Of a stretch of 64,000 nucleotides of DNA, positions 10,821 to 39,049 are shown one piece after another. Under the pieces are notes generated by a model. It searched no databases. It saw only the letters and a list, made by a program, of their open reading frames with translations, and was not told where the DNA came from. Source of the stretch: Conchocele bisecta (taxonomy: Eukaryota > Mollusca > Bivalvia > Lucinida > Thyasiridae); contig CM055265.1 in assembly GCA_029237695.1 (NCBI GenBank), forward strand, positions 216,148,506 to 216,212,505. Direction: 5' to 3'. Within the stretch, counting starts at the first letter, position 1. Every line of letters starts with the position of its first letter. The position numbers and the translations under genes were made by a program.

Positions 10821-10864
10821 TTACCGAATTAGCACATGTAAACTAAAGAATAAAGCACGCAGTC

Positions 10865-11127
10865 AGTAGTATATAGGGAGTCACTTCGTTACCGCGACCC
10901 AGGGTAAGAGAATTAACCCAAGCCTGGCACACCAAGAGGGTAAAATTGGGACATAATTTCCCTTAATTAAGCATGAAAAAACTACCTCCCACCTATAACA
11001 GAGGTTATCATAAATGTATGACAAAATTATGAGAAAAAATATTTGAACTCCTATTGAACAAAGTAAACATAATATTTAAATATAATTAAATTTTCCAACC
11101 TTGGGAAAGTATATTTTACTAATATAT
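10865..11127 (+). repeat. Left terminal inverted repeat
   Basis: Matches the reverse complement of the right end at about 21925-22187 with only a few substitutions (for example in the ATATTTNTTCTCATAA region). The outer tip is AGTAGTATATAGGG. Host sequence outside the two ends is unrelated apart from CAGTC. Confidence 0.9.
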
Positions 11128-11200
11128 AAGAAGCAAAAAAAATGTCACACGCCAAACAAAAAATATCACAAAAAGTTATGAAAACGGCAAACCCTAAATT

Positions 11201-11447
11201 TATAAGAGTGTAAAAATCCCGCCGGCAACCCTGTTTTCGACAACCACAATCTAGAGAAAACCAAAGCAAGCGTTTCTAGCACCAAAATCTAGATGTTTGT
11301 AGTACATTTTCCGTCTACGATGGTCTCGATAGAATCTTCCGAATAGTTTTCCAACAGTACCAAAAATTGCCAAAAATTGTCGATATGTTCTCGAACAACC
11401 AATTGAACATATGTTGTTGTACATGTACTCAACAACAAAGTTTCGAC
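11201..11447 (+). promoter_or_regulatory. Leader preceding ORF1 (TATA-like box)
   Basis: TATAAGAGTGTAAAAATCCC at 11201-11220 stands about 230 bp before the ORF1 ATG and is repeated at the same distance before each ORF1 copy (14063, 16925 and, on the minus strand, about 21925). A short upstream in-frame extension with its own ATG (11367) exists, so the start is not certain. The promoter role is inferred from position and conservation only. Confidence 0.3.
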
Positions 11448-14015
11448 ATGGCAACCACAACAACAACTTTCCAAGCGATGGGAATCCGTGCAGCGAAAAG
11501 TCTTTCCAAGCATTTGCTCTTGGAGAACGCGTTCGAAAACAATCTTGTGTCCGACATTGGGCGCGTAGACTACCTCGAAAACCACGAGGGACAAACAAAT
11601 TTGCAACCTCTAGAAGGTTTGCCAGCATTTGTAGACGATTTGTACGTGTTTGGGTACCTAGATAGAGAAGAATGCGTAGTAGTAGGAAACAAAGCATCTT
11701 GCACAACTGGGGGAAAGGGGTCTGCGAAAAATTGTGTGGGTAGAATAGCAATTGCATCTAGAGAAACAATTGGGAAGAAAAGCAAACCACTGCACACTAC
11801 AATCGTGCATACAATTCGACGCGAGAAAGAGTTTGGAAATAGTTCCATTCGAAATACTGTAGATCGCATAGAAGAAGCTAGCGAAAGCATAGCGAAACAA
11901 AGATGGGTAGAAATACACCAAGGGAGAGAACCCTTCGCACTGTTTGTAGCAAAAATAGCAGTGTCCGAAATAGCAATAGAAATTCTAGAAGAGCAGCTAC
12001 AGGCTCTACAAACTAGGTTGCGAGCAGCTGGGATGGAAATCTACTGTGTAGACTACACGAAAGACTTTTCTGGTACGCTAGATAGACCGGCTTTGGTAGA
12101 ACATCTACAGAAAGAGAAAGATTTTGCAATGCAAGGGAAAAATAGAGGTTGGGGAGGAATCGACGAAAGTGCTGGAACAATTCTAGACAACACAGGTACG
12201 GTAGGGGACCATGTTTGCTCTTGGATACAAACCAGAGACAACAGAACCACTAGAACAAAATTGTACAACAAGGTAGTTTACAATTTCGAGGCTGGAGAAG
12301 TACGAGAAAGCATTGGTGGGCATCTAGCAGACTACGCAGATTGCACCAACGACCATCTTCGGAAAACATTCCACCATGCGGATGTACAACGGAGAGGTTG
12401 CACTAGAATCGAGGTTTCGGTCTACGGTTCTCCAGATATTTCCAAAGAGACAGCACTAGAGGTGCTTGCAGAAGCAGAAGATACTGTTTCCCATACAAAT
12501 CTATTTGTAGTACAACCTCCACACAAACAGTGGGAAAATCTGGCAAAATCCATCGATAGATGTTTTGTACTAGGAGACAAACCATGTGGAGAGATCTTGG
12601 TAGCATGGTACGCGCATACATGTACAGGTAGGATTTCTGGAGTTCGTGTACGACCAACTGCGGCCACTATTGCAGATCCTTCTAGATGGAGTAGAGCAAT
12701 GGAGTGGGCAGCTGCAGATTTTGGTTTCCGGGCATGTCCGATCTTTCTAGCAGAGATTCTGTCTGCGGAAAATGGAGAAATAGAAATGTCTCCACTACGG
12801 TGTTTTGCAAAGGCTGCAACATCTCACGATACTCTGTGGTTGCAAGCATCCATCCGAAATTCGCGCTAGAAGAGAGGAAGTAGATCTAGAAGAAGTACTA
12901 CCATTTACAAACTACGTCCAATGGAAGTGGAGAGCGGAAAAATGCCAAGCGGTAGGTGTAGGAAAATCCAAATTCGCAATTCTAGAAGTTCCAGCAATAG
13001 CAGCTACTAGGTCTGTTTCTACACTCTCTCCACGCAATAGAGCACAGAGGCTGGTACAATTGCAAGATGCAGAGGAAGCAGAAATTTGGAGAAGGACAAC
13101 TCTTGCAAGAGAGCTAGAAAACTACTCTAGAGAAGAGTACAATAGAAGAGCCATCGAGCTAGAAAAGCTTGCAGAAGCTGCCAAGGAACATACAGAACAC
13201 ATTCGCAAAAATGAAGAACTCCGTCTAGATGTTCGAAAAATGCTAGGAGACAAAAGAACGTGCAAAATATCGGAACTACCAGACGAAAACGAAGTGTGGC
13301 ACATTCTAGGTTTCCGTAGTAGACCCGGTGGCAGGTTTGGAGATAGTACTAGAGTAGTTTTCTACCAACAAAATGCCACAAAACATCTTTGTGTTTGGCC
13401 AACTAGAGGAATTTCCAAAGTTCTAGACAGTTGCAAGGATGCATTCGAAATGGAGCGCGAAGAGCACCTAGAGAGGGAAACATTCTGGCTACCACCACGT
13501 GTTTCTCTTCGAATTCGAGTGTGCAGTGGGAAGGAGTTCCAGAGCCAATGTAGGACCATCCGATGGAATCCCATAGAAGTTGTAGAAGTACCAAATCCAA
13601 GAGAGTTGGAGAGAATACAGAGATTGGCTAGAGAGACGGAAGAGTACGATTCGACAGAGAAGTTGTGCGTAGAGGAGACTTTCTTGCAACAGAAAACGGA
13701 AACATACAGAGACATAGATGTAGAAGCGGGTTTGTACGATTGTAGTAGTACTGCGACACAATGTACAGAGGATGCAAAAGAACAATTCTATTTCTGGTGG
13801 CCACAAACGAAGATGGTACTCCAACAACGGGAGTGGAAATTCCTACCTACGGATTTTTCCTACAGAAAGAAATAGAGAGAATTGGTAGGCCTCTCCGCGA
13901 ACTACAGAATCCACTACGATGTAGAATGGGGGAGCCTCGCACTACACCGAACAAGAGAAAATCTAGAACATTTGTAGTGTGTCCTGTAGATTCTTTTTCT
14001 TTGGAAAAAGTATAG
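11448..14015 (+). CDS. ORF1 copy A: large putative replication-initiator-like protein (two indels)
   Basis: The ATG at 11448 follows a conserved leader; an in-frame ATG at 11367 is an alternative. The full frame would be about 856 codons ending at TAG 14013-14015. Compared with the other copies it lacks two bases near 12825 and one near 13748, so it reads in three frames. Motifs: VDYTKDFSG near residue 201, KLYNK near 272 and RIEVSVYG near 320. This order (acidic strand motif, Tyr/Lys motif, R-x-E strand) resembles gene-II/CRI-type rolling-circle initiators of filamentous phages and plasmids. A predicted coiled coil spans about 530-610. No Walker A, SF3 helicase or polymerase motif was seen. 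Codon use favours AGA, GTA and TCT. The function is inference at fold level; the family is not recognised. Confidence 0.65.
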
Positions 14016-14062
14016 AAACTAGAATGTCCGGCGGCAGTTCTAGCAGTTTTTCGAAAACAAAT

Positions 14063-14309
14063 TATAAGAGTGTAAAAATCCCGCCGACAACCCTTTTTTC
14101 GACAACCACAATCTAGAGAAAACCAAAGCAAGCGTTTCTAGCACCAAAATCTAGATGTTTGTAGTACATTTTCCGTCTACGATGGTCTCGATAGAATCTT
14201 CCAAATAGTTTTCCAACAGTACCAAAAATTGCCAAAAATTGTCGAAATGTTCTCGAACAACCAATTGAACATATGTTGTTGTACATGTACTCAACAACAA
14301 AGTTTCGAC
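14063..14309 (+). promoter_or_regulatory. Leader of ORF1 copy B
   Basis: Repeats the copy A leader (TATAAGAGTGTAAAAATCCC) and marks the start of the second 2862 bp tandem unit. Regulatory role not demonstrated. Confidence 0.3.
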
Positions 14310-16877
14310 ATGGCAACCACAACAACAACTTTCCAAGCGATGGGAATCCGTGCAGCGAAAAGTCTTTCCAAGCATTTGCTCGTGGAGAACGCGTTCGAAA
14401 ACAATCTTGTGTCCGACATTGGGCGCGTAGACTACCTCGAAAACCACGAGGGACAAACAAATTTGCAACCTCTAGAAGGTTTGCCAGCATTTGTAGACGA
14501 TTTGTACGTGTTTGGGTACCTAGATAGAGAAGAATGCGTTGTAGTGGAAACAAAGCATCTTGCACAAACTGGGGAAAAGGGGTCTGCGAAAAATTGTGTG
14601 GTAGAATAGCAATTGCATCTAGAGAAACAATTGGGAAGAAAAGCAAACCACTGCACACTACAATCGTGCATACAATTCGACGCGAGAAAGAGTTTGGAAA
14701 TAGTTCCATTCGAAATACTGTAGATCGCATAGAAGAAGCTAGCGAAAGCATAGCGAAACAAAGATGGGTAGAAATACACCAAGGGAGAGAACCCTTCGCA
14801 CTGTTTGTAGCAAAATAGCAGTGTCCGAAATAGCAATAGAAATTCTAGAAGAGCAGCTACAGGCTCTACAAACTAGGTTGCGAGCAGCTGGGATGGAAAT
14901 CTACTGTGTAGACTACACGAAAGACTTTTCTGGTACGCTAGATAGACCGGCTTTGGTAGAACATCTACAGAAAGAGAAAGATTTGCAATGCAAGGGAAAA
15001 CTAGAGGTTGGGGAGGAATCGACGAAAGTGCTGGAACAATTCTAGACAACACAGGTACGGTAGGGGACCATGTTTGCTCTTGGATACAAACCAGAGACAA
15101 CAGAACCACTAGAACAAAATTGTACAACAAGGTAGTTTCCAATTTCGAGGCTGGAGAAGTACGAGAAAGCATTGGTGGGCATCTAGCAGACTACGCAGAT
15201 TGCACCAACGACCATCTTCGGAAAACATTCCACCATGCGGATGTACAACGGAGAGGTTGCACTAGAATCGAGGTTTCGGTCTACGGTTCTCCAGATATTT
15301 CCAAAGAGACAGCACTAGAGGTGCTTGCAGAAGCAGAAGATACTGTTTCCCATACAAATCTATTTGTAGTACAACCTCCACACAAACAGTGGGAAAATCT
15401 GGCAAAATCCATCGATAGATGTTTTGTACTAGGAGACAAACCATGTGGAGAGATCTTGGTAGCATGGTACGCGCATACATGTACAGGTAGGATTTCTGGA
15501 GTTCGTGTACGACCAACTGCGGCCACTATTGCTATCCTTCTAGATGGAGTAGAGCAATGGAGTGGGCAGCTGCAGATTTTGGTTTCCGGGCATGTCCGAT
15601 CTTTCTAGCAGAGATTCTGTCTGCGGAAAATGGAGAAATAGAAATGTCTCCACTACGGTGTTTTGCAAAGGCTGCAACATCTTCCACGATACTCTGTGGT
15701 TGCAAGCATCCATCCGAAATTCGCGCTAGAAGAGAGGAAGTAGATCTAGAAGAAGTACTACCATCTACAAACTACGTCCAATGGAAGTGGAGAGCGGAAA
15801 AATGCCAAGCGGTAGGTGTAGGAAAATCCAAATTCGCAATTCTAGAAGTTCCAGCAATAGCAGCTACTAGGTCTGTTTCTACACTCTCTCCACGCAATAG
15901 AGCACAGAGGCTGGTACAATTGCAAGATGCAGAGGAAGCAGAAATTTGGAGAAGGACAACTCTTGCAAGAGAGCTAGAAAACTACTCTAGAGAAGAGTAC
16001 AATAGAAGAGCCATCGAGCTAGAAAAGCTTGCAGAAGCTGCCAAGGAACATACAGAACACATTCGCAAAAATGAAGAACTCCGTCTAGATGTTCGAAAAA
16101 TGCTAGGAGACAAAAGAACGTGCAAAATATCGGAACTACCAGACGAAAACGAAGTGTGGCACATTCTAGGTTTCCGTAGTAGACCCGGTGGCAGGTTTGA
16201 AGATAGTACTAGAGTAGTTTTCTACCAACAAAATGCCACAAAACATCTTTGTGTTTTGGCCAACTAGAGGAATTTCCAAAGTTCTAGACAGTTGCAAGGA
16301 TGCATTCGAAATGGAGCGCGAAGAGCACCTAGAGAGGGAAACATTCTGGCTACCACCACGTGTTTCTCTTCGAATTCGAGTGTGCAGTGGGAAGGAGTTC
16401 CAGAGCCAATGTAGGACCATCCGATGGAATCCCATAGAAGTTGTAGAAGTACCAAATCCAAGAGAGTTGGAGAGAATACAGAGATTGGCTAGAGAGACGG
16501 AAGAGTACGATTCTACAGAGAAGTTGTGCGTAGAGGAGACTTTCTTGCAACAGAAAACGGAAACATACAGAGACATAGATGTAGAAGCGGGTTTGTACGA
16601 TTGTAGTAGGTACTGCGACACAATGTACAGAGGATGCAAAAGAACAATTCTATTTCTGGTGGCCACAAACGAAGATGGTACTCCAACAACGGGAGTGGAA
16701 ATTCCTACCTACGGATTTTTCCTACAGAAAGAAATAGAGAGAATTGGTAGGCATCTCCGCGAACTACAGAATCCACTACGATGTAGAATGGGGGAGCCTC
16801 GCACTACACCGAACAAGAGAAAATCTAGAACATTTGTAGTGTGTCCTGTAGATTCTTTTTCTTTGGAAAAAGTATAG
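14310..16877 (+). pseudogene. ORF1 copy B, second tandem copy, frame-broken
   Basis: More than 98 percent identical by eye to copy A, at an offset of exactly 2862 bp. One-base differences break the frame near 14545-14605, 14815, 14983, 15532 and 16256. They fall mostly in runs of identical bases (AAAA, GGGG, TTTT). It is intact at the two places where copy A is broken. Either it is a decaying duplicate or the indels are residual sequencing errors in a repeat that could not be polished. The same initiator-like motifs and coiled coil are present. Confidence 0.75.
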
Positions 16878-16924
16878 AAACTAGAATGTCCGGCGGCAGT
16901 TCTAGCAGTTTTTCGAAAACAAAT

Positions 16925-17184
16925 TATAAGAGTGTAAAAATCCCGCCGACAACCCTGTTTTCGACAACCACAATCTAGAGAAAACCAAAGCAAGCGTTTC
17001 TAGCACCAAAATCTAGATGTTTGTAGTACATTTTCCGTCTACGATGGTCTCGATAGAATCTTCCGAATAGATTTCCAACAGTACCAAAAATTGCCATTTG
17101 TAGTGTGTCCTGTAGATTCTTTTTCTTTGGAAAAAGTATAGAAACTAGAATGTCCGGCGGCAGTTCTAGCAGTTTTTCGAAAAC
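16925..17184 (+). repeat. Internally deleted third ORF1 unit
   Basis: The first about 174 bp equal the start of the tandem unit up to ACCAAAAATTGCC. The sequence then jumps to ATTTGTAGTGTGTCCTGTAG, which is the 3' end of ORF1. About 2.6 kb is missing, with CA shared at the junction (about 17096-17097). The left arm therefore once held three units. Confidence 0.85.
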
Positions 17185-17276
17185 AATTAAAAAAACTACA
17201 ATCGAAGCTCCCAATAGGGTAGTTTTCCAAAGAAAATAGAAAATTGTTCGAATACTTTTTTTCCCAAAGAGAGCTA

Positions 17277-17952
17277 CTACATGTAGAACGGGCTGCGTCT
17301 GCCAGAGGGAAGGTGTGTGGGCTCGCTACGACCAGATGGGGGATCGCTGGGGATGTTTTTTTTTTTCTTCGGCGTGCTTGGCTGTTGGGTGGGGTCGGGG
17401 TCCGTTTCGCTCTTCCGGAGTCTACGGGTCTCTTGCACCACGACTGGAAACAGTATTTTGCAGGCCGTGTATGCCGCCACCGCCGCACACAGCCACCACT
17501 TCGTATTCTCTACGGTTCTCCAGATGTCGTGCACCTCCAGCTCGTCTTTCTTCGGACACTAGGAATCGGCCGTGCGGGCATCGCCGGAAATTGCGTCCAA
17601 CAGCCTGCGTTCCAGTGTATCCAACCGGTTCTCCAAACGTCTCTCCATGTCGGACAGGCGCGTCGATTCTTCGAACGAGCTTGCGTTTCGTATATCTTCT
17701 AGTAGATCCGTGGGGAACTTGGTGGGAGGACCAGGTGTGGTCACCCTGTGTACTACGGGGGTAGGAGTTTCTTGTTCTTCTAGGGGTTTCTTCGGGCTTT
17801 GTACTACGTTCCGCATCGACGGCGTCCCATATACTTCGAAGACGCGTGGTACCGATCCCATATTTTTTCTTCGTGTCGTCCGCAGACTCGACACCTCGAA
17901 GATTGCGAATATCTTCTATATCCTGCTTGGACAAATTTCGTTTTTGTGGCAT
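17277..17952 (-). pseudogene. ORF2, left-arm copy (full N terminus, frame-broken)
   Basis: Starts at ATG 17952. The first about 50 residues (SKQDIEDIRNL ... KKKYGIGTTRLRSIWDA) form a helix-turn-helix-like DNA-binding region. Compared with the right copy there is one extra T near 17790 (frame shift) and a GAG to TAG change near 17560. The downstream part (17534-17277) keeps the hydrophobic segment WWLCAAVAAYTACK and a Lys/Pro/Ser-rich tail ending NPFYM-like. It is convergent with ORF1, with about 100 bp between the deleted unit and its stop. Likely a DNA- and membrane-associated accessory protein; this is inference. Confidence 0.65.
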
Positions 17953-18040
17953 CTAGGCACAAAATATGCATGTACATACAAATATAGTTTGCCATAATGT
18001 ACAACACGAAAAATATTGGGCACACCTAGACATACTAGGC

Positions 18041-18345
18041 ATGCGTGCACCACGACTAGGCATACCAGCACCACGACTAGGCATACCAGCACCACACCTA
18101 GGCATACTAGCACCACAACTAAGGCATACAGCACCACGCCCAGACTTTTGGTTTGGACCACTCTCTTTCCAAGGATTGTAGTCTGGAAATATACAGCAGG
18201 CTCTTCGCGGCCTCCTTGTTGCCCCTCTGGTCCAAAAGACTGGGCGTGGTGCTGGTATGCCTAGTTGTGGTGCTAGTATGCCTAGGTGTGGTGCTGGTAT
18301 GCCTAGTCGTGGTGCTGGTATGCCTAGTCGTGGTGCACGCATGCA
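18041..18345. repeat. Central hairpin of inverted 21 bp direct repeats (iteron-like)
   Basis: Left block (about 18041-18148): four units of 21 bp (GACTAGGCATACCAGCACCAC type; AGGCATA cores near 18058, 18079, 18100, 18121). Right block (about 18240-18345): four units in the opposite orientation (TATGCCT at about 18256, 18277, 18298, 18319). The loop of about 85 bp lacks symmetry except at its edges. This is the symmetry axis of the whole element. The 21 bp period is 7 codons, and the block is open in several frames. Candidate replication origin or telomere-type hairpin. Confidence 0.85.
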
Positions 18346-18955
18346 CACGAAGAAAAAATATGGGATCGGTACCACGCGTCTTCGAAGAATATGGGACGCC
18401 GTCGATGCGGAACGTAGTACAAAGCCCGAAGAACCCCTAGAAGAACAAGAAACTCCTACCCCCGTAGTACACAGGGTGACCACACCTGGTCCTCCCACCA
18501 AGTTCCCCACGGATCTACTAGAAGATATACGAAACGCAAGCTCGTTCGAAGAATCGACGCGCATGTCCGACATGGAGAGACGTTTGGAGAACCGGTTGGA
18601 TACACTGGAACGCAGGCTGTTGGACGCAATTTCCGGCGATGCCCGCACGGCCGATTCCGAGTGTCCGAAGAAAGACGAGCTGGAGGTGCACGACATCTGG
18701 AGAAACGTAGAGAATACGAAGTGGTGGCTGTGTGCGGCGGTGGCGGCATACACGGCCTGCAAAATACTGTTTCCAGTCGTGGTGCAAGAGACCCGTAGAC
18801 TCCGGAAGAGCGAAACGGACCCCGACCCCACCCAACAGCCAAGCACGCCGAAGAAAAAAAAGAAAAAAAAAAACAACATCCCCAGCGATCCCCCATCTGG
18901 TCGTAGCGAGCCCACACACCTTCCCTCTGGCAGACGCAACCCGTTCTACATGTAG
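18341..18955 (+). CDS. ORF2, right-arm copy, N-terminally truncated
   Basis: About 204 codons from the ATG at 18341 to TAG 18953-18955; the frame is also open upstream through the 21 bp repeats, from 18257. It lacks about 173 bp present in the left arm (about 17867-18039), removing the first about 27 codons and the upstream region. The remaining HTH core is KKKYGIGTTRLRRIWDA. Then follow a Pro/Thr-rich linker, a charged coiled coil (ERRLENRLDTLERRLLDAI, about residues 83-101), one hydrophobic segment (WWLCAAVAAYTACKILFPVV) and a Lys-rich, Ser/Pro-rich tail. It is convergent with ORF1 copy C. No database family is recognised. Confidence 0.65.
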   Translation: MHTKKKYGIGTTRLRRIWDAVDAERSTKPEEPLEEQETPTPVVHRVTTPGPPTKFPTDLLEDIRNASSFEESTRMSDMERRLENRLDTLERRLLDAISGDARTADSECPKKDELEVHDIWRNVENTKWWLCAAVAAYTACKILFPVVVQETRRLRKSETDPDPTQQPSTPKKKKKKKNNIPSDPPSGRSEPTHLPSGRRNPFYM

Positions 18956-19090
18956 TAGCTCTCTTTGGGAAAAAAAGTATTCGAACAATTTTCTATTTTC
19001 TTTGGAAAACTACCCTATTGGGAGCTTCGATTGTAGTTTTTTTATTTGTTTTCGAAAAACTGCTAGAACTGCCGCCGGACATTCTAGTTT

Positions 19091-21674
19091 CTATACTTTT
19101 TCCAAAGAAAAAGAATCTACAGGACACACTACAAATGTTCTAGATTTTCTCTTGTTCGGTGTAGTGCGAGGCTCCCCCATTCTACATCGTAGTGGATTCT
19201 GTAGTTCGCGGAGAGGCCTACCAATTCTCTCTATTTCTTTCTGTAGGAAAAATCCGTAGGTAGGAATTTCCACTCCCGTTGTTGGAGTACCATCTTCGTT
19301 TGTGGCCACCAGAAATAGAATTGTTCTTTTGCATCCTCTGTACATTGTGTCGCAGTACCTACTACAATCGTACAAACCCGCTTCTACATCTATGTCTCTG
19401 TATGTTTCCGTTTTCTGTTGCAAGAAAGTCTCCTCTACGCACAACTTCTCTGTAGAATCGTACTCTTCCGTCTCTCTAGCCAATCTCTGTATTCTCTCCA
19501 ACTCTCTTGGATTTCGTACTTCTACAACTTCTATGGGATTCCATCGGATGTCCTACATTGGCTCTGGAACTCCTTCCCACTGCACACTCGAATTCGAAGA
19601 GAAACACGTGGTGGTAGCCAGAATGTTTCCCTCTCTAGGTGCTCTTCGCGCTCCATTTCGAATGCATCCTTGCAACTGTCTAGAACTTTGGAAATTCCTC
19701 TAGTTGGCCAAACACAAAGATGTATTGTGGCATTTTGTTGGTAGAAAAACTACTCTAGTAACTATCTCCAAACCTGCCACCGGGTCTACTACCGAAACCT
19801 AGAATGTGCCACACTTCGTTTTCGTCTGGTAGTTCCGATATTTTGCACGTTCTTTTGTCTCCTAGCATTTTTCGAACATCTAGACGGAGTTCTTCCTTTT
19901 TGCGAATGTGTTCTGTATGTTCCTTGGCAGCTTCTGCAAGCTTTTCTAGCTCGATGGCTCTTCTATTGTACTCTTCTCTAGAGTAGTTTTCTAGCTCTCT
20001 TGCAAGAGTTGTCCTTCTCCAAATTTCTGCTTCCTCTGCATCTTGCAATTGTACCAGCCTCTGTGCTCTATTGCGTGGAGAGAGTGTAGAAACAGACCCT
20101 AGTAGCTGCTATTGCTGGAACTTCTAGAATTGCGAATTTGGATTTTCCTACACCTACCGCTTGGCATTTTTCCGCTCTCCACTTCCATTGGACGTAGTTT
20201 GTAGATGGTAGTACTTCTTCTAGATCTACTTCCTCTCTTCTAGCGCGAATTTCGGATGGATGCTTGCAACCACAGAGTATCGTGGAAGATGTTGCAGCCT
20301 TTGCAAAACACCGTAGTGGAGACATTTCTATTTCTCCATTTTCCGCAGACAGAATCTCTGCTAGAAAGATCGGACATGCCCGGAAACCAAAATCTGCAGC
20401 TGCCCACTCCATTGCTCTACTCCATCTAGAAGGATATGCAATAGTGGCCGCAGTTGGTCGTACACGAACTCCAGAAATCCTACCTGTACATGTATGCGCA
20501 TACCATGCTACCAAGATCTCTCCACATGGTTTGTCTCCTAGTACAAAACATCTATCGATGGATTTTGCCAGATTTTCCCACTGTTTGTGTGGAGGTTGTA
20601 CTACAAATAGATTTGTATGGGAAACAGTATCTTCTGCTTCTGCAAGCACCTCTAGTGCTGTCTCTTTGGAAATATCTGGAGAACCGTAGACCGAAACCTC
20701 GATTCTAGTGCAACCTCTCCGTTGTACATCCGCATGGTGGAATGTTTTCCGAAGATGGTCGTTGGTGCAATCTGCGTAGTCTGCTAGATGCCCACCAATG
20801 CTTTCTCGTACTTCTCCAGCCTCGAAATTGGAAACTACCTTGTTGTACAATTTTGTTCTAGTGGTTCTGTTGTCTCTGGTTTGTATCCAAGAGCAAACAT
20901 GGTCCCCTACCGTACCTGTGTTGTCTAGAATTGTTCCAGCACTTTCGTCGATTCCTCCCCCAACCTCTATTTTTCCCTTGCATTGCAAAATCTTTCTCTT
21001 TCTGTAGATGTTCTACCAAAGCCGGTCTATCTAGCGTACCAGAAAATCTTTCGTGTAGTCTACACAGTAGATTTCCATCCCAGCTGCTCGCAACCTAGTT
21101 TGTAGAGCCTGTAGCTGCTCTTCTAGAATTTCTATTGCTATTTCGGACACTGCTATTTTTGCTACAAACAGTGCGAAGGGTTCTCTCCCTTGGTGTATTT
21201 CTACCCATCTTTGTTTCGCTATGCTTTCGCTATGCTTTCGCTAGCTTCTTCTATGCGATCTACAGTATTTCGAATGGAACTATTTCCAAACTCTTTCTCG
21301 CGTCGAATTGTATGCACGATTGTAGTGTGCAGTGGTTTGCTTTTCTTCCCAATTGTTTCTCTAGATGCAATTGCTATTCTACCCACACAATTTTTCGCAG
21401 ACCCCTTTTCCTCAGTTGTGCAAGATGCTTTGTTTCCTACTACTACGCATTCTTCTCTATCTAGGTACCCAAACACGTACAAATCGTCTACAAATGCTGG
21501 CAAACCTTCTAGAGGTTGCAAATTTGTTTGTCCTTCGTGGTTTTCGAGGTAGTCTACGCGCCCAATGTCGGACACAAGATTGTTTTCGAACGCGTTCTCC
21601 AAGAGCAAATGCTTGGAAAGACTTTTCGCTGCACGGATTCCCATCGCTTGGAAAGTTGTTGTTGTGGTTGCCAT
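19091..21674 (-). pseudogene. ORF1 copy C, right arm, frame-broken
   Basis: The single right-arm ORF1 runs from ATG 21674 to TAG 19093-19091. It is near-identical to A and B, but has an 11 bp duplication near 21220-21241 and single-base indels near 21046, 20965, 20095, 19760 and 19551. None of these coincides with the breaks in A or B, so a majority reading of the three copies gives one long frame. It is convergent with the plus-strand ORF2. Confidence 0.75.
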
Positions 21675-21924
21675 GTCGAAACTTTGTTGTTGAGTACATG
21701 TACAACAACATATGTTCAATTGGTTGTTCGAGAACATTTCGACAATTTTTAATGGCAATTTTTGGTACTGTTGGAAAACTATTCGGAAGATTCTATCGAG
21801 ACCATCGTAGACGGAAAATGTACTACAAACATCTAGATTTTGGTGCTAGAAACGCTTGCTTTGGTTTTCTCTAGATTGTGGTTGTCGAAAACAGGGTTGT
21901 CGGCGGGATTTTTACACTCTTATA

Positions 21925-22187
21925 ATATATTAGTAAAATATACTTTCCCAAGGTTGGAAAATTTAATTATATTTAAATATTATGTTTACTTTGTTCAATA
22001 GGAGTTAAAATATTTGTTCTCATAATTTTGTCATAAATTTATGATAACCTCTGTTATAGGTGGGAGGTAGTTTTTTCATGCTTAATTAAGGGAAATTATG
22101 TCCCAATTTTACCCTCTTGGTGTGCCAGGCTTGGGTTAATTCTCTTACCCTGGGTCGCGGTAACGAAGTGACTCCCTATATACTACT
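21925..22187 (-). repeat. Right terminal inverted repeat
   Basis: Mirror of 10865-11127, ending CTCCCTATATACTACT and followed by CAGTC (22188-22192), which equals the five bases preceding the left end. Confidence 0.9.
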
Positions 22188-22192
22188 CAGTC

Positions 22193-34068: not shown

Positions 34069-34631
34069 TTAAGAGTTTCATATAACGAGTGTAGACTGTA
34101 ATTAACAACCACACATTGACAAGCAACAATACGTTGATGCCTATCAAGAAGTGGAACAGTGTATACATATCGTAGTCGGGTTGGTCAACTATGCAGAAGC
34201 AGCCAACGTAAAGCTGCCCCAGTTGACAATATAGGTTGGCTATTGTTAAACAGAACCACATATATAATATTGATTATTCCTGAATTGGAATAATCGGAGT
34301 TATTTTGCCTATGAAATATTGTTTCCGGGTTGTTGTTGTAGTTATAACGGAAATGACAGGTACTCGCTGACGTCATTGGAATTTGTGTAACCCACGTCAT
34401 TTGCATCATCAGTTTTTGTATAAGCTGGTCATTTTGGTCTTCAGTATTTGCGTAGGTTCTGTCGTCATTAAAATACGTGCAATAATCTTTCTTTGCATTC
34501 TGATCGTTGGAGAGACAACAAGCAATTTGTAAAATTTATTTATAACGAGTTAGATATTTTTGTAAAATGTTTTAATTGTAATTGAACTGTCCAAGGTTTG
34601 CTATTGTATTTATCGATTGTACCTATTTGTA

Positions 34632-35741
34632 ATGGCGGGTCGCGGTAAAGGTGTGCGAAAAAGGAAAATCTTGTACAGTTCAAGGTCGGGAAAAAAGTCA
34701 CGTGGCGACGGAGACGGGGGGGCCCCACCACCCGCACCCGCAATGGAGGATGAATTTTCGTTACCAAGTCAGGACGAGGACAATGCTGGTATACGGGTAG
34801 CAGGCCATGTTGTGGATTTTGAAGAGATTTTGCGTGCATCAAATGACATTGTGCTGCCCGATAACCCCACCCCAACACATGTACCCAATCCCCTACGCCT
34901 TTCTACATCTGCTGGTGGTCTATCCGCAAATGTAATGGAGCAAAATGCAACAAATATGCCCATGTTTGTACCAGTTGCAACAGCGCGTACCCCCTCCGAT
35001 GATATTTTCATACATATTCCCATGTCCCTCAGACAACAGATCATCCGGGGGGATTATATTAACCTCGCCTTATTGTTGAAAGGGGATATTGAGCTGAGTG
35101 ATATTTGTGGAGCGAGCACATTCCGATTATCGGTGGATGGGGCCATAGAGGCAAAGCCGAGAGAGTGCAAGGATCGCATAGGATCTATTGAAAGGTGGAC
35201 GGATGCCTTCATCATATACATGGCAATATATTTATCGGCTCACAATGAAAAGTCGGTGGAAATGTTGCAGTATATGCAGAATGTCCGCGATTGTGCTGCC
35301 AGGCAGAGTGGGTTTGGCTGGCGCACGTACGATGAGCAATTCAGGCTGCGCCAGGCATCCACACCAGTCTCGTGGGCTAACATAAATACTGAGGTATGGT
35401 GGCGTTGCACTCAAGTAAGGGAGGCTACCAGTTTCTTGGGCAGTAACCACCTACAGTCGAGTGCAACGGCATCTAGGTCTACAACAGCAGGGTACGCATG
35501 TAATGATTACAACAATGGGGTGTGTCGTTGGCCAAACTGTCGGTTTGCCCATGTATGCGCCAATTGTGGACTGGGTCATAGGGCAAATCAATGCTCGGGT
35601 GGTACCCTCGGAAATAGTTTTCGAGGCCAAGTCCGACCCACCGGCATGTTACAGCGAGGGGGAGGCCCACCAGGTAGAGGAAGGGGTTTCATTAGAGGGA
35701 TGCGCGGATCCGCAAGGGGATTTGGGCGTCGTCCGTACTAA
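34632..35741 (+). CDS. Ngaro gag-like protein with C-terminal Cys/His clusters
   Basis: The start at 34632 (GTAATGGCG context) is preferred over an in-frame ATG at 34617. About 369 codons. The N terminus is basic (GRGKGVRKRK), then an acidic linker, then a helical central region and Cys/His clusters at about residues 292-326 (CNDYNNGVCRWPNCRFAH and CANCGLGHRANQC, the latter a CCHC-like knuckle), ending in an Arg/Gly-rich tail. Expected role: nucleic-acid-binding structural protein of the retroelement particle. Its 3' end overlaps the start of pol in another frame. Confidence 0.8.
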   Translation: MAGRGKGVRKRKILYSSRSGKKSRGDGDGGAPPPAPAMEDEFSLPSQDEDNAGIRVAGHVVDFEEILRASNDIVLPDNPTPTHVPNPLRLSTSAGGLSANVMEQNATNMPMFVPVATARTPSDDIFIHIPMSLRQQIIRGDYINLALLLKGDIELSDICGASTFRLSVDGAIEAKPRECKDRIGSIERWTDAFIIYMAIYLSAHNEKSVEMLQYMQNVRDCAARQSGFGWRTYDEQFRLRQASTPVSWANINTEVWWRCTQVREATSFLGSNHLQSSATASRSTTAGYACNDYNNGVCRWPNCRFAHVCANCGLGHRANQCSGGTLGNSFRGQVRPTGMLQRGGGPPGRGRGFIRGMRGSARGFGRRPY

Positions 35742-37370
35742 TTTAAACGTACAAAATTTGGCGAAATCACCCATAAATGTAGCAAGCTTGCGCGAAGCAC
35801 TCCGGAATTATGATACCGATAAGGCCACATTTTTGTTAAATGGTTTTACAAGCGGGTTTTCCTTGAATTATAATGGCCCCAGAGTTGCAACAGACTCGAA
35901 GAACTTGAAATCTGCTAAAAATGCCTGCGATATTGTGCAACAAAAAATTAACAAAGAAATTGAAGCAGGTAGGGTAGCAGGACCTTATAGGATACTAGCC
36001 ATTGCCAAATTTAAGAATATCACCCATCGGATTAGTGCCTAAAAAGGCTCCAGGGGATTTTAGAATGATACACCACCTATCTTATCCACAGGGGGCGTCC
36101 GTTAATGATTATATTGATCCGGCCCTGTGTTCGGTTCAATACACAAGCTTTGACGAGGCAGTTCATATGATACAGGATCTCGGTCCGAACTGCTTTCTGT
36201 TCAAGGTAGATATTAAGAACGCGTTCCGCCTGATCCCAATTAGACCGGAAGATTTTGAGTTACTCGGGTTTACTTCAGATAGTTCTTTCTATGTGGACAA
36301 ATGTTTGCCTTTCGGCTGCTCTATCAGCTGTAGTATTTTTGAGAAATTTGCGACATTTATTGAATTTTTTGGTATTACGCAAAATACAATCAGGAAGGCT
36401 CATACACTATTTGGATGACTACCTGGGTGGGGACAGGTCGAGACAGTTGTGTAAAAATGTCATGTGTACGTTTAAGGCATGTACAACGGAATTGAATGTG
36501 CCATTGGCTGAAGAAAAATCTGAGGGACCGGTTCAAATTTTGGTTTTTCTGGGGCTGGAATTAGATTCGCGTAATATGGTCGTTCGTATTCCTGAAACTA
36601 AAATAGCAGAGGTACTCGTTAAGATCCGGAACATGTTGGCCAAGAAAAATACCACGCTAAAACTAATGCAATCATTGATTGGGTCCCTCAATTTCTGTTG
36701 TAGGGCTATAGCCATGGGTCGTCCTTTTTGTAGGAGGATGATAAATGCGACGTGCGGTCTCACGAAACCACATCACCATTTAACGATTAATGAAGGTGTG
36801 AAACAATATTTGTTTATGTGGCGTGAGTTCTTTGCACAGCATAATGGAGTGTCCGTGTTTCACGATTGTTATTGGGTAACAAATGCCGATGCGGAATTGT
36901 ACACAGATAGTGCAGGGGCGCGAGGTCTAGGTTTTGGAATCTATTTCCAGGGTCATTGGGCATATTCAACATGGCCAGATTCTTGGCATGACAAAGGGTT
37001 CACGCAGGATATTACGCTCCTAGAACTATTCCCAATTTGGTTGTCAATGTATCTCTGGGGGAGACAGCTCTGTAATAAGAGGATTTCATTTCAATGCGAT
37101 AATATGTCGGTAGTGCACATATTGAATACAATGACATCCAAGTCGCAGCGCGTCATGCATTTGGTTCGTAAACTGGCATTGTTGTGTCTCGAATGCAATA
37201 TAATGATAAAGGCATCACATGTGGTTGGGTCCAGAAATGTAATCTGTGATGCGTTGTCTCGTTTGCAGTTGTCGGGCTTCAGAGAGTTGGCACCGGAAGC
37301 CGATCCGGAGCCTTGCTTGGTGCCGGAACACATTTGGAGCACCTTAACCAAACAGCTGAACAATTACTGA
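35640..37370 (+). pseudogene. Ngaro reverse transcriptase-RNase H, two frame shifts
   Basis: Pol enters in a different frame within the gag 3' end. Seen: KINKEIEAGRVAGPY (N-terminal RT region), LVPKKAPGDFRMIHHLSYP, FKVDIKNAFRLIP (catalytic Asp), LPFGCSISCSIFEKF and YLDDYLGG (active-site YxDD). The RNase H part has TDSAG, LLELFP, QCDNMSVV and ICDALSR supplying D-E-D-D. Frame changes lie near 35995 and 36395 (just before YLDDYL). Reverse transcription in this family yields circular DNA joined by the downstream recombinase. As read here the protein cannot be made in one frame. Confidence 0.85.
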
Positions 37371-38245
37371 AATCAAGTGTTTCTCCCAATACCGCATCGA
37401 CATATACAACCGCTTTAGCAGCTTTTTCGAACTTTCTCGTACAGAATAAATTACCGCCGAATTGGCCGGCATCGGTCAAACACATTGTTCTTTTCATAGC
37501 ATCATGCTTTGAGCGCGGTCTGGCATCTGGTACTATATGTACGTATATTAGAGGCATTAATTATTTTCATAAAATACACAGCTGGGTGAATATTTCTGAA
37601 GTATTCATTATTAAAAAACTTTTGGAGGGTTGTCGCCGGTGTCGGTCTGGGAAGCCTGATAATCGTGCCCCCATCACACCTGATATGTTGGCGGAATTGT
37701 GTTTGGCACTTCCGTCAATATGTTATAACATGTATGAAGCCCAAATGTTTAAGGCAGCTTTTCTACTGTCATTTTTCGCCCTCATGCGAGTTAGCGATTT
37801 GGTAGCAACTTCAATGTTACAAGCCGGTAGAACATTACAATTGAATGATGTTGTTGTTAGCGTGGACGCGTCTAAAATGTCAATATCACTTCGAACATAT
37901 AAAACGCACCAGTCGGGCCCGCCGACCGTTTTAGTGTTGCCACAGGAAAGCAAGGCAGACATGTGCCCGGTCCGTTCAATTATCAATTTCTTGAGAATCC
38001 GGTCAATGATAAAGGGCCCACTGTTTTGTCATGCCAATCAGAGGCCTGTGACTCGTGCTCAGTTTGATGGGGTTCTTGCTAAGTGCATGAAACATAGTGA
38101 CGTGCATAAGGCAGGCACCATCATTAGGTCGCACAGCTTTAGGATTGGCAGGGCAACACAGTTGGCCGCACGCGGGGTGAGCGATAAAGACATAATGAGG
38201 TTAGGTCGATGGCGTTCAAACGCTTATCTAGGTTACATTCGTTAA
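37313..38245 (+). CDS. Ngaro tyrosine recombinase
   Basis: The ORF opens upstream of the RNase H stop (overlap 58 bp); 310 codons. The N-terminal SAM-like helical domain (SPNTASTYTTALAAFSNFL) is followed by the catalytic domain. Arg I is in FFALMRVSDL (about residue 161), HxxR is in HSFRIGRATQL (about 275-278), and the nucleophile Tyr is near the C terminus in RSNAYLGYIR. It would integrate circular cDNA at short matching sites, consistent with no long target duplication. Frame intact. Confidence 0.85.
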   Translation: MLGAGTHLEHLNQTAEQLLKSSVSPNTASTYTTALAAFSNFLVQNKLPPNWPASVKHIVLFIASCFERGLASGTICTYIRGINYFHKIHSWVNISEVFIIKKLLEGCRRCRSGKPDNRAPITPDMLAELCLALPSICYNMYEAQMFKAAFLLSFFALMRVSDLVATSMLQAGRTLQLNDVVVSVDASKMSISLRTYKTHQSGPPTVLVLPQESKADMCPVRSIINFLRIRSMIKGPLFCHANQRPVTRAQFDGVLAKCMKHSDVHKAGTIIRSHSFRIGRATQLAARGVSDKDIMRLGRWRSNAYLGYIR

Positions 38246-38467
38246 GTTAATTATTCAATATTGATTTAACGTTGGTCGGCTGGGACAAATATACACGATC
38301 TAAGGCGATTCCAGTGTAAGTTCATTAGGATGTAAATTTACCGGGTTTTTTAAAAATGGCCGCCGATATTGGAAACATTGGGGATTAATCATTAATGAAG
38401 GTATGCAAAGTATTGGAACCTGTATTATTGTTTAAATACTGGCAATACATAGGCTTAGGTACATGTT

Positions 38468-39049
38468 ATGGAATGTTCTATGACTGATATTGAAATTTTA
38501 TTCACAGATATTTGGTGCGTCGGTGATTCCATTCCATATTGGGCCGGCACGTATGCGATGGCTAAGAATGACACGCATTTGCACTTGCCTGACGATATGA
38601 AGATGGGCTGGTATGGAATAAGGGGCATGAAATGGGAACAGTTTAAACACAGTCTGCAACTCCGGGTGTTGTTTCAGAAACCTCCGAAAGTGATACTCAT
38701 TCATCTAGGAGGGAATGACTTGACTTATTATTCTATTTTTACGATATTCAGGCTCATTACCAGTGGGGTGCAAATGCTGCATGAAGCTTTTCCTCTAGCA
38801 TGTATTGTTTGGGTGGACATACTGCAACGGTCCGCATGGTGTGGTGAGTTTATCTGCGTTGAGTTGAAACGTAAAAGGGTCAACCGTTGGGGTAGGCAGC
38901 AAATCAGACAGGTGAATGGGGATGTGTTGTCCTTCAATATTAAAGCGGTACAGACTCAATTCTATATTCCAGATGGGATACACCTCGCAGATAGTGGCCT
39001 GGAAGTGTATTTAGAGGGATTTCGAGATAAGATAATGGATCATTTATAG
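38468..39049 (+). CDS. Ngaro SGNH/GDSL hydrolase ORF
   Basis: 193 codons. Block I is VGDS (catalytic Ser, about residue 21), block III is LGGND (about residues 82-86), and block V is PDGIHLADSG with the Asp/His pair near the C terminus. These fit SGNH-fold esterases, which are known as an extra ORF in Ngaro-type elements. The cellular substrate is unknown. The frame is intact, and it lies between the recombinase and B1. Confidence 0.75.
   Translation: MECSMTDIEILFTDIWCVGDSIPYWAGTYAMAKNDTHLHLPDDMKMGWYGIRGMKWEQFKHSLQLRVLFQKPPKVILIHLGGNDLTYYSIFTIFRLITSGVQMLHEAFPLACIVWVDILQRSAWCGEFICVELKRKRVNRWGRQQIRQVNGDVLSFNIKAVQTQFYIPDGIHLADSGLEVYLEGFRDKIMDHL

Follow-up and report, generated by a model that had tools for sequence, protein, structure and literature searches.

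What is the palindrome of 11.3 kilobases (kb) that occupies positions 10865-22187 of a 64,000-nucleotide stretch of the genome of the thyasirid bivalve Conchocele bisecta (contig CM055265.1)? We call this whole stretch the window and the palindrome the window element. It is flanked by CAGTC on both sides and carries broken copies of a gene for a protein of about 860 amino acids (aa). A preliminary description, made from the letters of the window alone, had offered two readings, a dimeric replication intermediate trapped in the chromosome or a transposon that moves as a palindrome. We find that the window element is a genuine, damaged copy of an animal mobile-element family. Of the two readings, the mobile palindrome stands, while the single trapped intermediate gives way to a form that recurs throughout a family. 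Relatives in the host genome include palindromes with a DNA polymerase B gene and palindromes with the 860-aa gene, both types being bounded by 5-base-pair (bp) target duplications and often centred on a conserved hairpin.

Polymerase-encoding palindromes share the ends of the window element

The end sequence of the window element was found at 52 places in the host assembly (1.89 Gb; 40 of 225 candidates were scored). Counted by eye, the end matches form 16 facing pairs, including that of the window, plus eight unpaired places. Ten of the 15 other pairs were fetched, and all ten enclose palindromes of 9.5-12.1 kb whose arms are 95-99% alike. These palindromes lack the window gene and carry DNA polymerase B sequence, often broken. 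PF03175 (DNA polymerase B_2) passed the Pfam cut-off in one of six frames scanned, at 3.9e-6, and stayed below it in the other five; the longest frame had no Pfam match better than chance. In a relative, L073, the polymerase gene is open over 1363 codons. It has 2556 homologues, and among the 120 listed, PF03175 is precomputed in 22, the two that are named by organism coming from the coral Oculina. The alignment contains an invariant MDTDS, which we take to be polymerase motif C. Ahead of the polymerase domain, the polymerase profile (L073, 3553-7641; alignment A2) has a weak match to a C2H2 zinc finger (0.0077) and a non-significant one to a Vsr-type endonuclease (E 0.23-0.25).

Non-palindromic relatives with similar ends were also found. 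The 8.4 kb of L073 that were read contain a single polymerase gene along with a helix-turn-helix gene. In an element of 18.1 kb the polymerase gene is decayed, and the 12 kb read show no mirroring of arms. Elements of 16-19 kb were sampled at three loci only, L075 and L076 from one element and L077 from the end of another, 18-kb element. By eye, L077 contains a relative of the small gene in the loops of the polymerase palindromes. Two further L077 proteins look virus-like by eye, a coiled-coil repeat protein (32-1597; one match to a PHROG with no assigned function, 0.0026) and a hydrophobic protein (1838-2478; no PHROG match). A large polymerase subfamily of about 79% identity consists mostly of single, unpaired copies among 115 scored matches, and the 16302 polymerase candidates of a first search suggest that the host genome contains very many polymerase fragments.

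The 860-aa gene marks a second palindromic family

The preliminary description saw two genes, ORF1 and ORF2, but both belong to a single gene of about 860 aa, as foreign homologues (e.g. P0002 and P0013) span both open reading frames (ORFs) and eight loci of the host genome carry stop-free frames of 854-874 aa. We found 121 matches to the window gene at 85 loci of the host genome (117 of 768 candidates scored). Gene copies are convergent, forward then reverse, at 31 loci and divergent at none, while 54 loci show one direction only; the window locus falls among the latter, its reverse copy not being among the scored matches. An inverted pair of at least 100 bp was present in 27 of the 30 loci examined.

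Homologues of the 860-aa protein (139 proteins) include, among the 120 listed, sequences from Elysia, Nematostella and Actinostola, as well as from assemblies of bacterial symbionts (Thiodiazotropha), where host contamination is suspected. No annotated relative was found here, and this work puts the gene family on the map of animal genomes. Although positions with D, E, Y, K and R are strictly conserved in the alignment, comparison with Pfam, PHROGs, NCBIfam and PDB sequences gave weak matches at chance level only. Sequence and profile searches yielded no transposase, recombinase or solved-structure match beyond chance hits below threshold, which agrees with the preliminary view that no transposase motif of a known class is visible. 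Used alone as a protein query, ORF2 returned 4152 candidates, none at E <= 0.001. Phage and viral-contig collections contained no relative of the 860-aa gene or the polymerase, and prokaryote genomes none of the 860-aa gene, so the searched collections offer no exogenous virus.

The order of the motifs D-Y-T-x-D, Y-N-K and R-I-E-V in the 860-aa protein, which in our estimation resembles that of rolling-circle Rep proteins, prompted a test of this relation, and it was unsupported. The Rep_trans profile had no match in the host genome, while a B. subtilis control matched. An hhalign comparison of the 860-aa profile with seven filamentous-phage gene II proteins gave P = 0.13, and two of 20 column shuffles scored better.

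Judging from protein sequences, palindromes with the 860-aa gene may possibly exist in other species, and because the results for protein pairs were mixed we claim no more. Five pairs, chosen by eye from contigs of equal length, were presumed to lie on the same contig. Two of the five are mutual nearest relatives (98.8 and 97.8%). Of the rest, one pair is 93.7% alike without being nearest, another overlaps over only 67 aa (94%), too little to tell, and the last reaches no more than 42%. Proteins from contigs of different length, compared as a further pair, were 54% alike.

Ends and target duplications

We examined the flanks of 18 elements, comprising the window element, ten polymerase palindromes and seven elements of the 860-aa type. 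Two pairs of ends were not resolved and are excluded from the count. All 16 resolved elements, five of them from the 860-aa family, have a 5-bp target duplication. Fifteen of the duplicated sequences are distinct, with ACTGG occurring twice, so the further copies with different duplications that the preliminary description had proposed to look for do exist. In a scripted flank test, 5-bp agreement was seen in 11/11 elements as opposed to 3/594 shifted positions; in two of these 11, one extra AGT was assigned to the element post hoc.

Elements start with AGTAGT, and in two of them a third AGT is present at one end only. Such AGTAGT(AGT) end motifs are common to both gene-content families, although the ends of other members of the 860-aa family are related to, but distinct from, those of the window element. 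Terminal trinucleotide repeats are expected from slippage in protein-primed starts. Across the genome, the end pattern AGTAGTANNNAGGGNRTCA has 4515 forward and 4475 reverse exact matches (8,990), compared with 2 and 3 for the reversed control. Of the first 100 listed matches, 76 form 38 facing pairs less than 30 kb apart, and 37 of these pairs have the same variant at both ends. Their spacings are 15.9-19.2 kb in 19 cases, 29.0 kb in one, 7-14 kb in nine and below 7 kb in nine. These counts and spacings place the ends in a family of very many members, with half of the sampled pairs in the size range of Polintons.

An inverted repeat of 68 bp that is bounded by AGTAGT on either side was seen next to a copy of the 860-aa gene (L044, 3352-3419), and it also lies at the extreme end of the 18.1-kb element (L075, 19-86). 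It may be a minimal element, or else a hairpin that forms part of the end sequence.

The centre is often a conserved hairpin and sister arms are levelled

That the inner end of each arm forms a hairpin, as the preliminary description had it, holds for many relatives, in which the hairpin centre is conserved. We scanned the centres of 30 loci of the 860-aa family for loops of 44-71 nucleotides (nt) closed by a tight stem, defined as at least 19 of 20 positions paired. Such a stem closes a loop of 50-64 nt at 17 of the 30 loci; as two of these, L031 and L043, overlap, they represent 16 elements. Two loop sequences recur in this family, L1 in 14 loci (13 elements) and L2 in nine (eight elements, one of them partial). 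The loop diverges less than the gene in both groups, by 1.53 vs 4.74% in L1 (12 loci, 66 pairs) and by 2.09 vs 5.45% in L2 (eight loci, 28 pairs, one of them within a single element). The L1 hairpin of 81 nt is identical throughout at 31 of the 40 places scored and 99% identical at the other nine (150 candidates), and at 23 of the 40 places a copy of the 860-aa gene is no more than 4.5 kb away. Perfect L1 hairpins were found beside genes that are only 53 and 55% identical to that of the window in their C-terminal part, and a 99% hairpin beside one further gene of 55% identity in this part, at loci that may be palindromic. The polymerase palindromes have a different loop of 58 nt. Six of the ten contain it (77-100% identity), and across the genome 37 places match it with 76-100%.

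Over the outer 3 kb of the ten polymerase palindromes, divergence is 0.20-2.53% between sister arms (mean 1.0), compared with 1.32-10.06% between arms that belong to different elements (mean 6.2). The nearest neighbour is the sister for each of the 20 arms. In this respect the polymerase palindromes resemble retroelements with their long terminal repeats (LTRs).

The window element is a probable dead recombinant

The anatomy of the window element is as follows; strands are given where they apply.

10860-10864, no strand: left target duplication CAGTC, read from the sequence
10865-11200, + strand: left terminal sequence, starting AGTAGTATATAGGGAGTCA; 336 bp in common with the ten polymerase-B palindromes at 87-92%
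11142-11200, + strand: remnant of the start of the other family's polymerase gene, about 19 codons, by comparison by eye with open-frame starts; the interior of the second family follows directly
11201-14062, + strand: left arm, unit copy 1 with the broken gene of about 860 aa (ORF1 11367-12869, ORF2 12805-13875)
14061-16924, + strand: left arm, unit copy 2, a tandem duplicate, broken
16921-17096, + strand: partial start of the unit, third occurrence
17422-17952, - strand: left-arm helix-turn-helix / coiled-coil gene, broken, convergent with the 860-aa gene (domains by eye)
18034-18336, no strand: centre, an inverted 21-bp minisatellite around an asymmetric core
18257-18955, + strand: right-arm gene with helix-turn-helix, coiled coil and membrane stretch (domains by eye)
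19044-21933, - strand: right arm, one unit copy of the 860-aa gene, broken
21919-22187, - strand: right terminal repeat, 269 bp
22188-22192, no strand: right target duplication CAGTC, read from the sequence

Several features of the preliminary description were accurate. Its inverted termini of about 260 bp measure 269 nt at 98% identity (10865-11133 and 21919-22187), and its CAGTC target duplication was confirmed. Its mirrored arms are indeed mirrored, but they are not equal. The left arm contains two tandem copies of a 2.87-kb unit (11.20-14.06 and 14.06-16.92 kb), against a single copy in the right arm (19.04-21.93 kb); the three are 98.6-99.1% identical, or about 1-1.4% apart. The layout as a head-to-head dimer holds. 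Its proposed unit of about 3.95 kb matches the right arm, which measures 3.96 kb between the edge of the core (18232) and the outer terminus (22187), while the left arm is 7.3 kb long because of the tandem duplication. The asymmetric core spans 80 bp (18152-18231), with a loop of 67 nt at the tightest stem, and sits in the inverted 21-bp minisatellite. By eye, the helix-turn-helix / coiled-coil / membrane-stretch gene flanks the core on both sides and converges with the 860-aa gene; a helix-turn-helix gene of this type is also present in L073.

The window copy is taken to be dead, as none of its three copies of the 860-aa gene stays in one frame, each being divided among several. At the left end, 336 bp are common with other elements, of which 269 are mirrored. 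Similarity to the polymerase elements stops at position 11200, inside the first codons of the polymerase gene, so that the element combines ends of the polymerase family with an interior of the 860-aa family. It is thus probably a dead recombinant.

A model of replication through a folded strand

From these observations we infer how the elements may replicate, act in trans and integrate. In the account that we favour and consider reasonably probable, they are protein-primed linear replicons. The polymerase that the element encodes would copy its linear DNA, with a protein at either end as primer, and where the copied DNA is a palindrome, the strand thereby displaced would fold into one long hairpin with the whole arm as its stem. 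Mismatch repair in the stem would make the arms identical, and the unpaired loop would escape this levelling and be passed on as it is. A new start at the base of the hairpin would then copy round the loop and restore the double-stranded palindrome, which an integrase supplied in trans would insert. Palindromes without a polymerase, namely the 860-aa family and the window copy, would be replicated in trans. In the case of the window copy, recombination would have put the ends of a polymerase element on an 860-aa interior, after which the tandem duplication and frameshifts were gained. The near-identical arms, the recurring loop, the trinucleotide repeats at the ends and the movement of palindromes that lack a polymerase would all be accounted for together by such a hairpin strand.

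A bipartite replicon is also conceivable, if somewhat doubtful. Here, polymerase and 860-aa palindromes with related ends and helix-turn-helix genes would move only as palindromes and copy themselves via a single strand that folds over its full length into a hairpin with the conserved loop at its centre. As terminal protein, resolvase or integrase, the 860-aa protein would act on the hairpin or the ends.

A number of observations weigh against the folded-strand model. No element was seen replicating, and no integrase gene was recognised in the frames scanned, which were part of the frames of the elements, those of 16-19 kb being read in part. A palindrome is not needed for insertion, as non-palindromic relatives with similar ends exist. 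In the scan of 44-71-nt loops, 13 of the 30 loci had no tight central stem, some of them stopping short of the centre. Four of the ten polymerase palindromes are without the conserved 58-nt loop, the loops of C13_24 and C6_106 measure 81 and 91 nt, and that of the window element, which matched no other examined locus, is not of a conserved type. The loop is more divergent than the gene in 10 of the 66 L1 pairs and three of the 28 L2 pairs, and recombination could equally have spread an identical hairpin to many places. Levelling of the arms was measured in the polymerase type only. Finally, sister-arm differences are clustered in three of the ten polymerase palindromes (C6_106, C10_45 and C2_155; variance/mean 2.6-4.6), which fits gene conversion or recombination in these three elements.

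Such clusters are what conversion in place would leave, with an integrase moving double-stranded palindromes whose arms then convert each other in the chromosome, much as the arms of human Y palindromes are kept alike by mutual gene conversion. In the other seven elements, however, the differences are fairly even (variance/mean 0.8-1.9; no formal test), and divergence within elements varies as it would for insertions of different age; we regard conversion in place as improbable. Unlikely, in our view, is an origin of the palindromes by copying back, as defective and independently formed products of non-palindromic Polinton-like elements that have no palindromic life cycle. Symmetric recombinants of adenoviruses offer a parallel, on which a limited literature search yielded nothing. 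Non-palindromic elements with the same ends do exist, and the ends are very numerous at spacings that exceed the length of the palindromes. On a common map of nine polymerase palindromes, moreover, the inner ends of the mirrored arms vary between about 3.4 and 5.5 kb, though several reach the same hairpin. Differing inner ends fit independent copying back, but they fit one-sided deletions at an unstable centre as well. The palindrome looks inherited, as the same central loop recurs across elements, both in six of the ten polymerase palindromes and, within the 860-aa family, in two groups, and paired copies of the 860-aa gene are without exception convergent.

If the 860-aa protein were itself the integrase or transposase of a new class, its family would be autonomous and would have acquired polymerase-type ends by end capture only. 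The stop-free frames at eight loci, the 5-bp duplications of the five resolved family elements and the strictly conserved D, E, Y, K and R positions would suit such an enzyme. We nevertheless think this very improbable: the protein matched no transposase, recombinase or solved structure, and the AGT-repeat ends, whose terminal motifs are common to both families, fit protein-primed copying. Long palindromes are a known assembly problem, but we give practically no credence to an assembly artefact or a chance inverted repeat, given that there are many palindromes, each with its own 5-bp duplication and its own arm divergence.

Comparison with known systems

The recognised routes of movement for animal mobile DNA are cut-and-paste, rolling-circle, reverse transcription and Polinton-type copying. 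Polintons (Mavericks) have a 6-bp target duplication, inverted ends that begin with 5'-AG and a length of 15-20 kb. One paper on these elements describes a protein-primed DNA polymerase B and a retrovirus-type integrase as universal among them (PMC4642659). The present family resembles Polintons in its PF03175-type polymerase B, inverted ends starting with AG, target duplication and many copies, and 19 of the 38 sampled end pairs are 15.9-19.2 kb apart, the palindromes themselves being shorter. The polymerase, which would be protein-primed, is present in the family, and the window copy retains only about 19 codons of it. Differences include the 5-bp duplication, seen in the 16 resolved palindromes, in place of 6 bp, the length of 9.5-12.1 kb with a central hairpin in the fetched polymerase palindromes, and the replacement of the polymerase by the 860-aa gene in the second family. 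Capsid proteins, a packaging ATPase and an adenovirus-type protease, found in most Polintons, were not recognised in the stretches read, where capsid and ATPase were not searched for; the protease model PF00770 had no match in the host genome, but matched none of 14 controls either. The elements would work like Polinton-type self-copying elements. We do not claim Polinton membership, because the palindromes have a 5-bp duplication and the search for integrase and capsid genes, incomplete as it was, turned up none.

Bidnaviruses have their genes split over two molecules. A paper on these viruses gives them a Polinton-type polymerase, small genomes and inverted ends that form no hairpins (PMC4061559). 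They resemble the present elements in the Polinton-type polymerase, the inverted ends and the split of genes, and differ in having virus particles and non-hairpin ends; no relation to the 860-aa protein was found. Adenovirus symmetric recombinants are protein-primed linear palindromes formed by copying back and arise as occasional defective genomes, whereas the present palindromes are found again and again among many insertions and keep a conserved loop. In parvoviruses and linear hairpin replicons, a head-to-head dimer forms around a hairpin. A conserved-loop hairpin at the dimer centre is present in many relatives of the window element, whose own loop is not one of the conserved ones. The linear hairpin-ended replicon proposed in the preliminary description needs revision at the outer ends, which look protein-primed and are common to the polymerase-B elements, the hairpin lying in the middle; family searches gave no Rep or NS1 match. 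Galileo is assigned to the P superfamily (PMC4168063, PMC2775673). Foldback and Galileo elements likewise have very long inverted repeats, while the present elements have a polymerase and a conserved central loop.

The new part is the palindromic form with a conserved hairpin. A search of open-licence papers found no literature on palindromic polymerase-B elements, which is weak evidence of novelty. If the folded-strand model is true, recurring palindromes with levelled arms and an 81-nt hairpin that is constant beside diverging genes would represent a new replication layout for transposons. It would also explain how kilobase palindromes persist in a genome, and arm divergence would provide a clock for each insertion, as LTRs do.

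Other features of the window

A stretch of N, either masked or a gap, lies at about 58.66-59.17 kb and is seen as runs of X in translated frames. At 34617-39049, the window contains a retroelement with a gag-like frame and a reverse transcriptase/RNase H frame (Pfam hits weak and below cut-off). It also has a tyrosine recombinase, for which PF00589 passed the cut-off at 3.2e-6, and after it a frame whose start looks like a hydrolase. We take this to be an element of the DIRS/Ngaro kind from its look.

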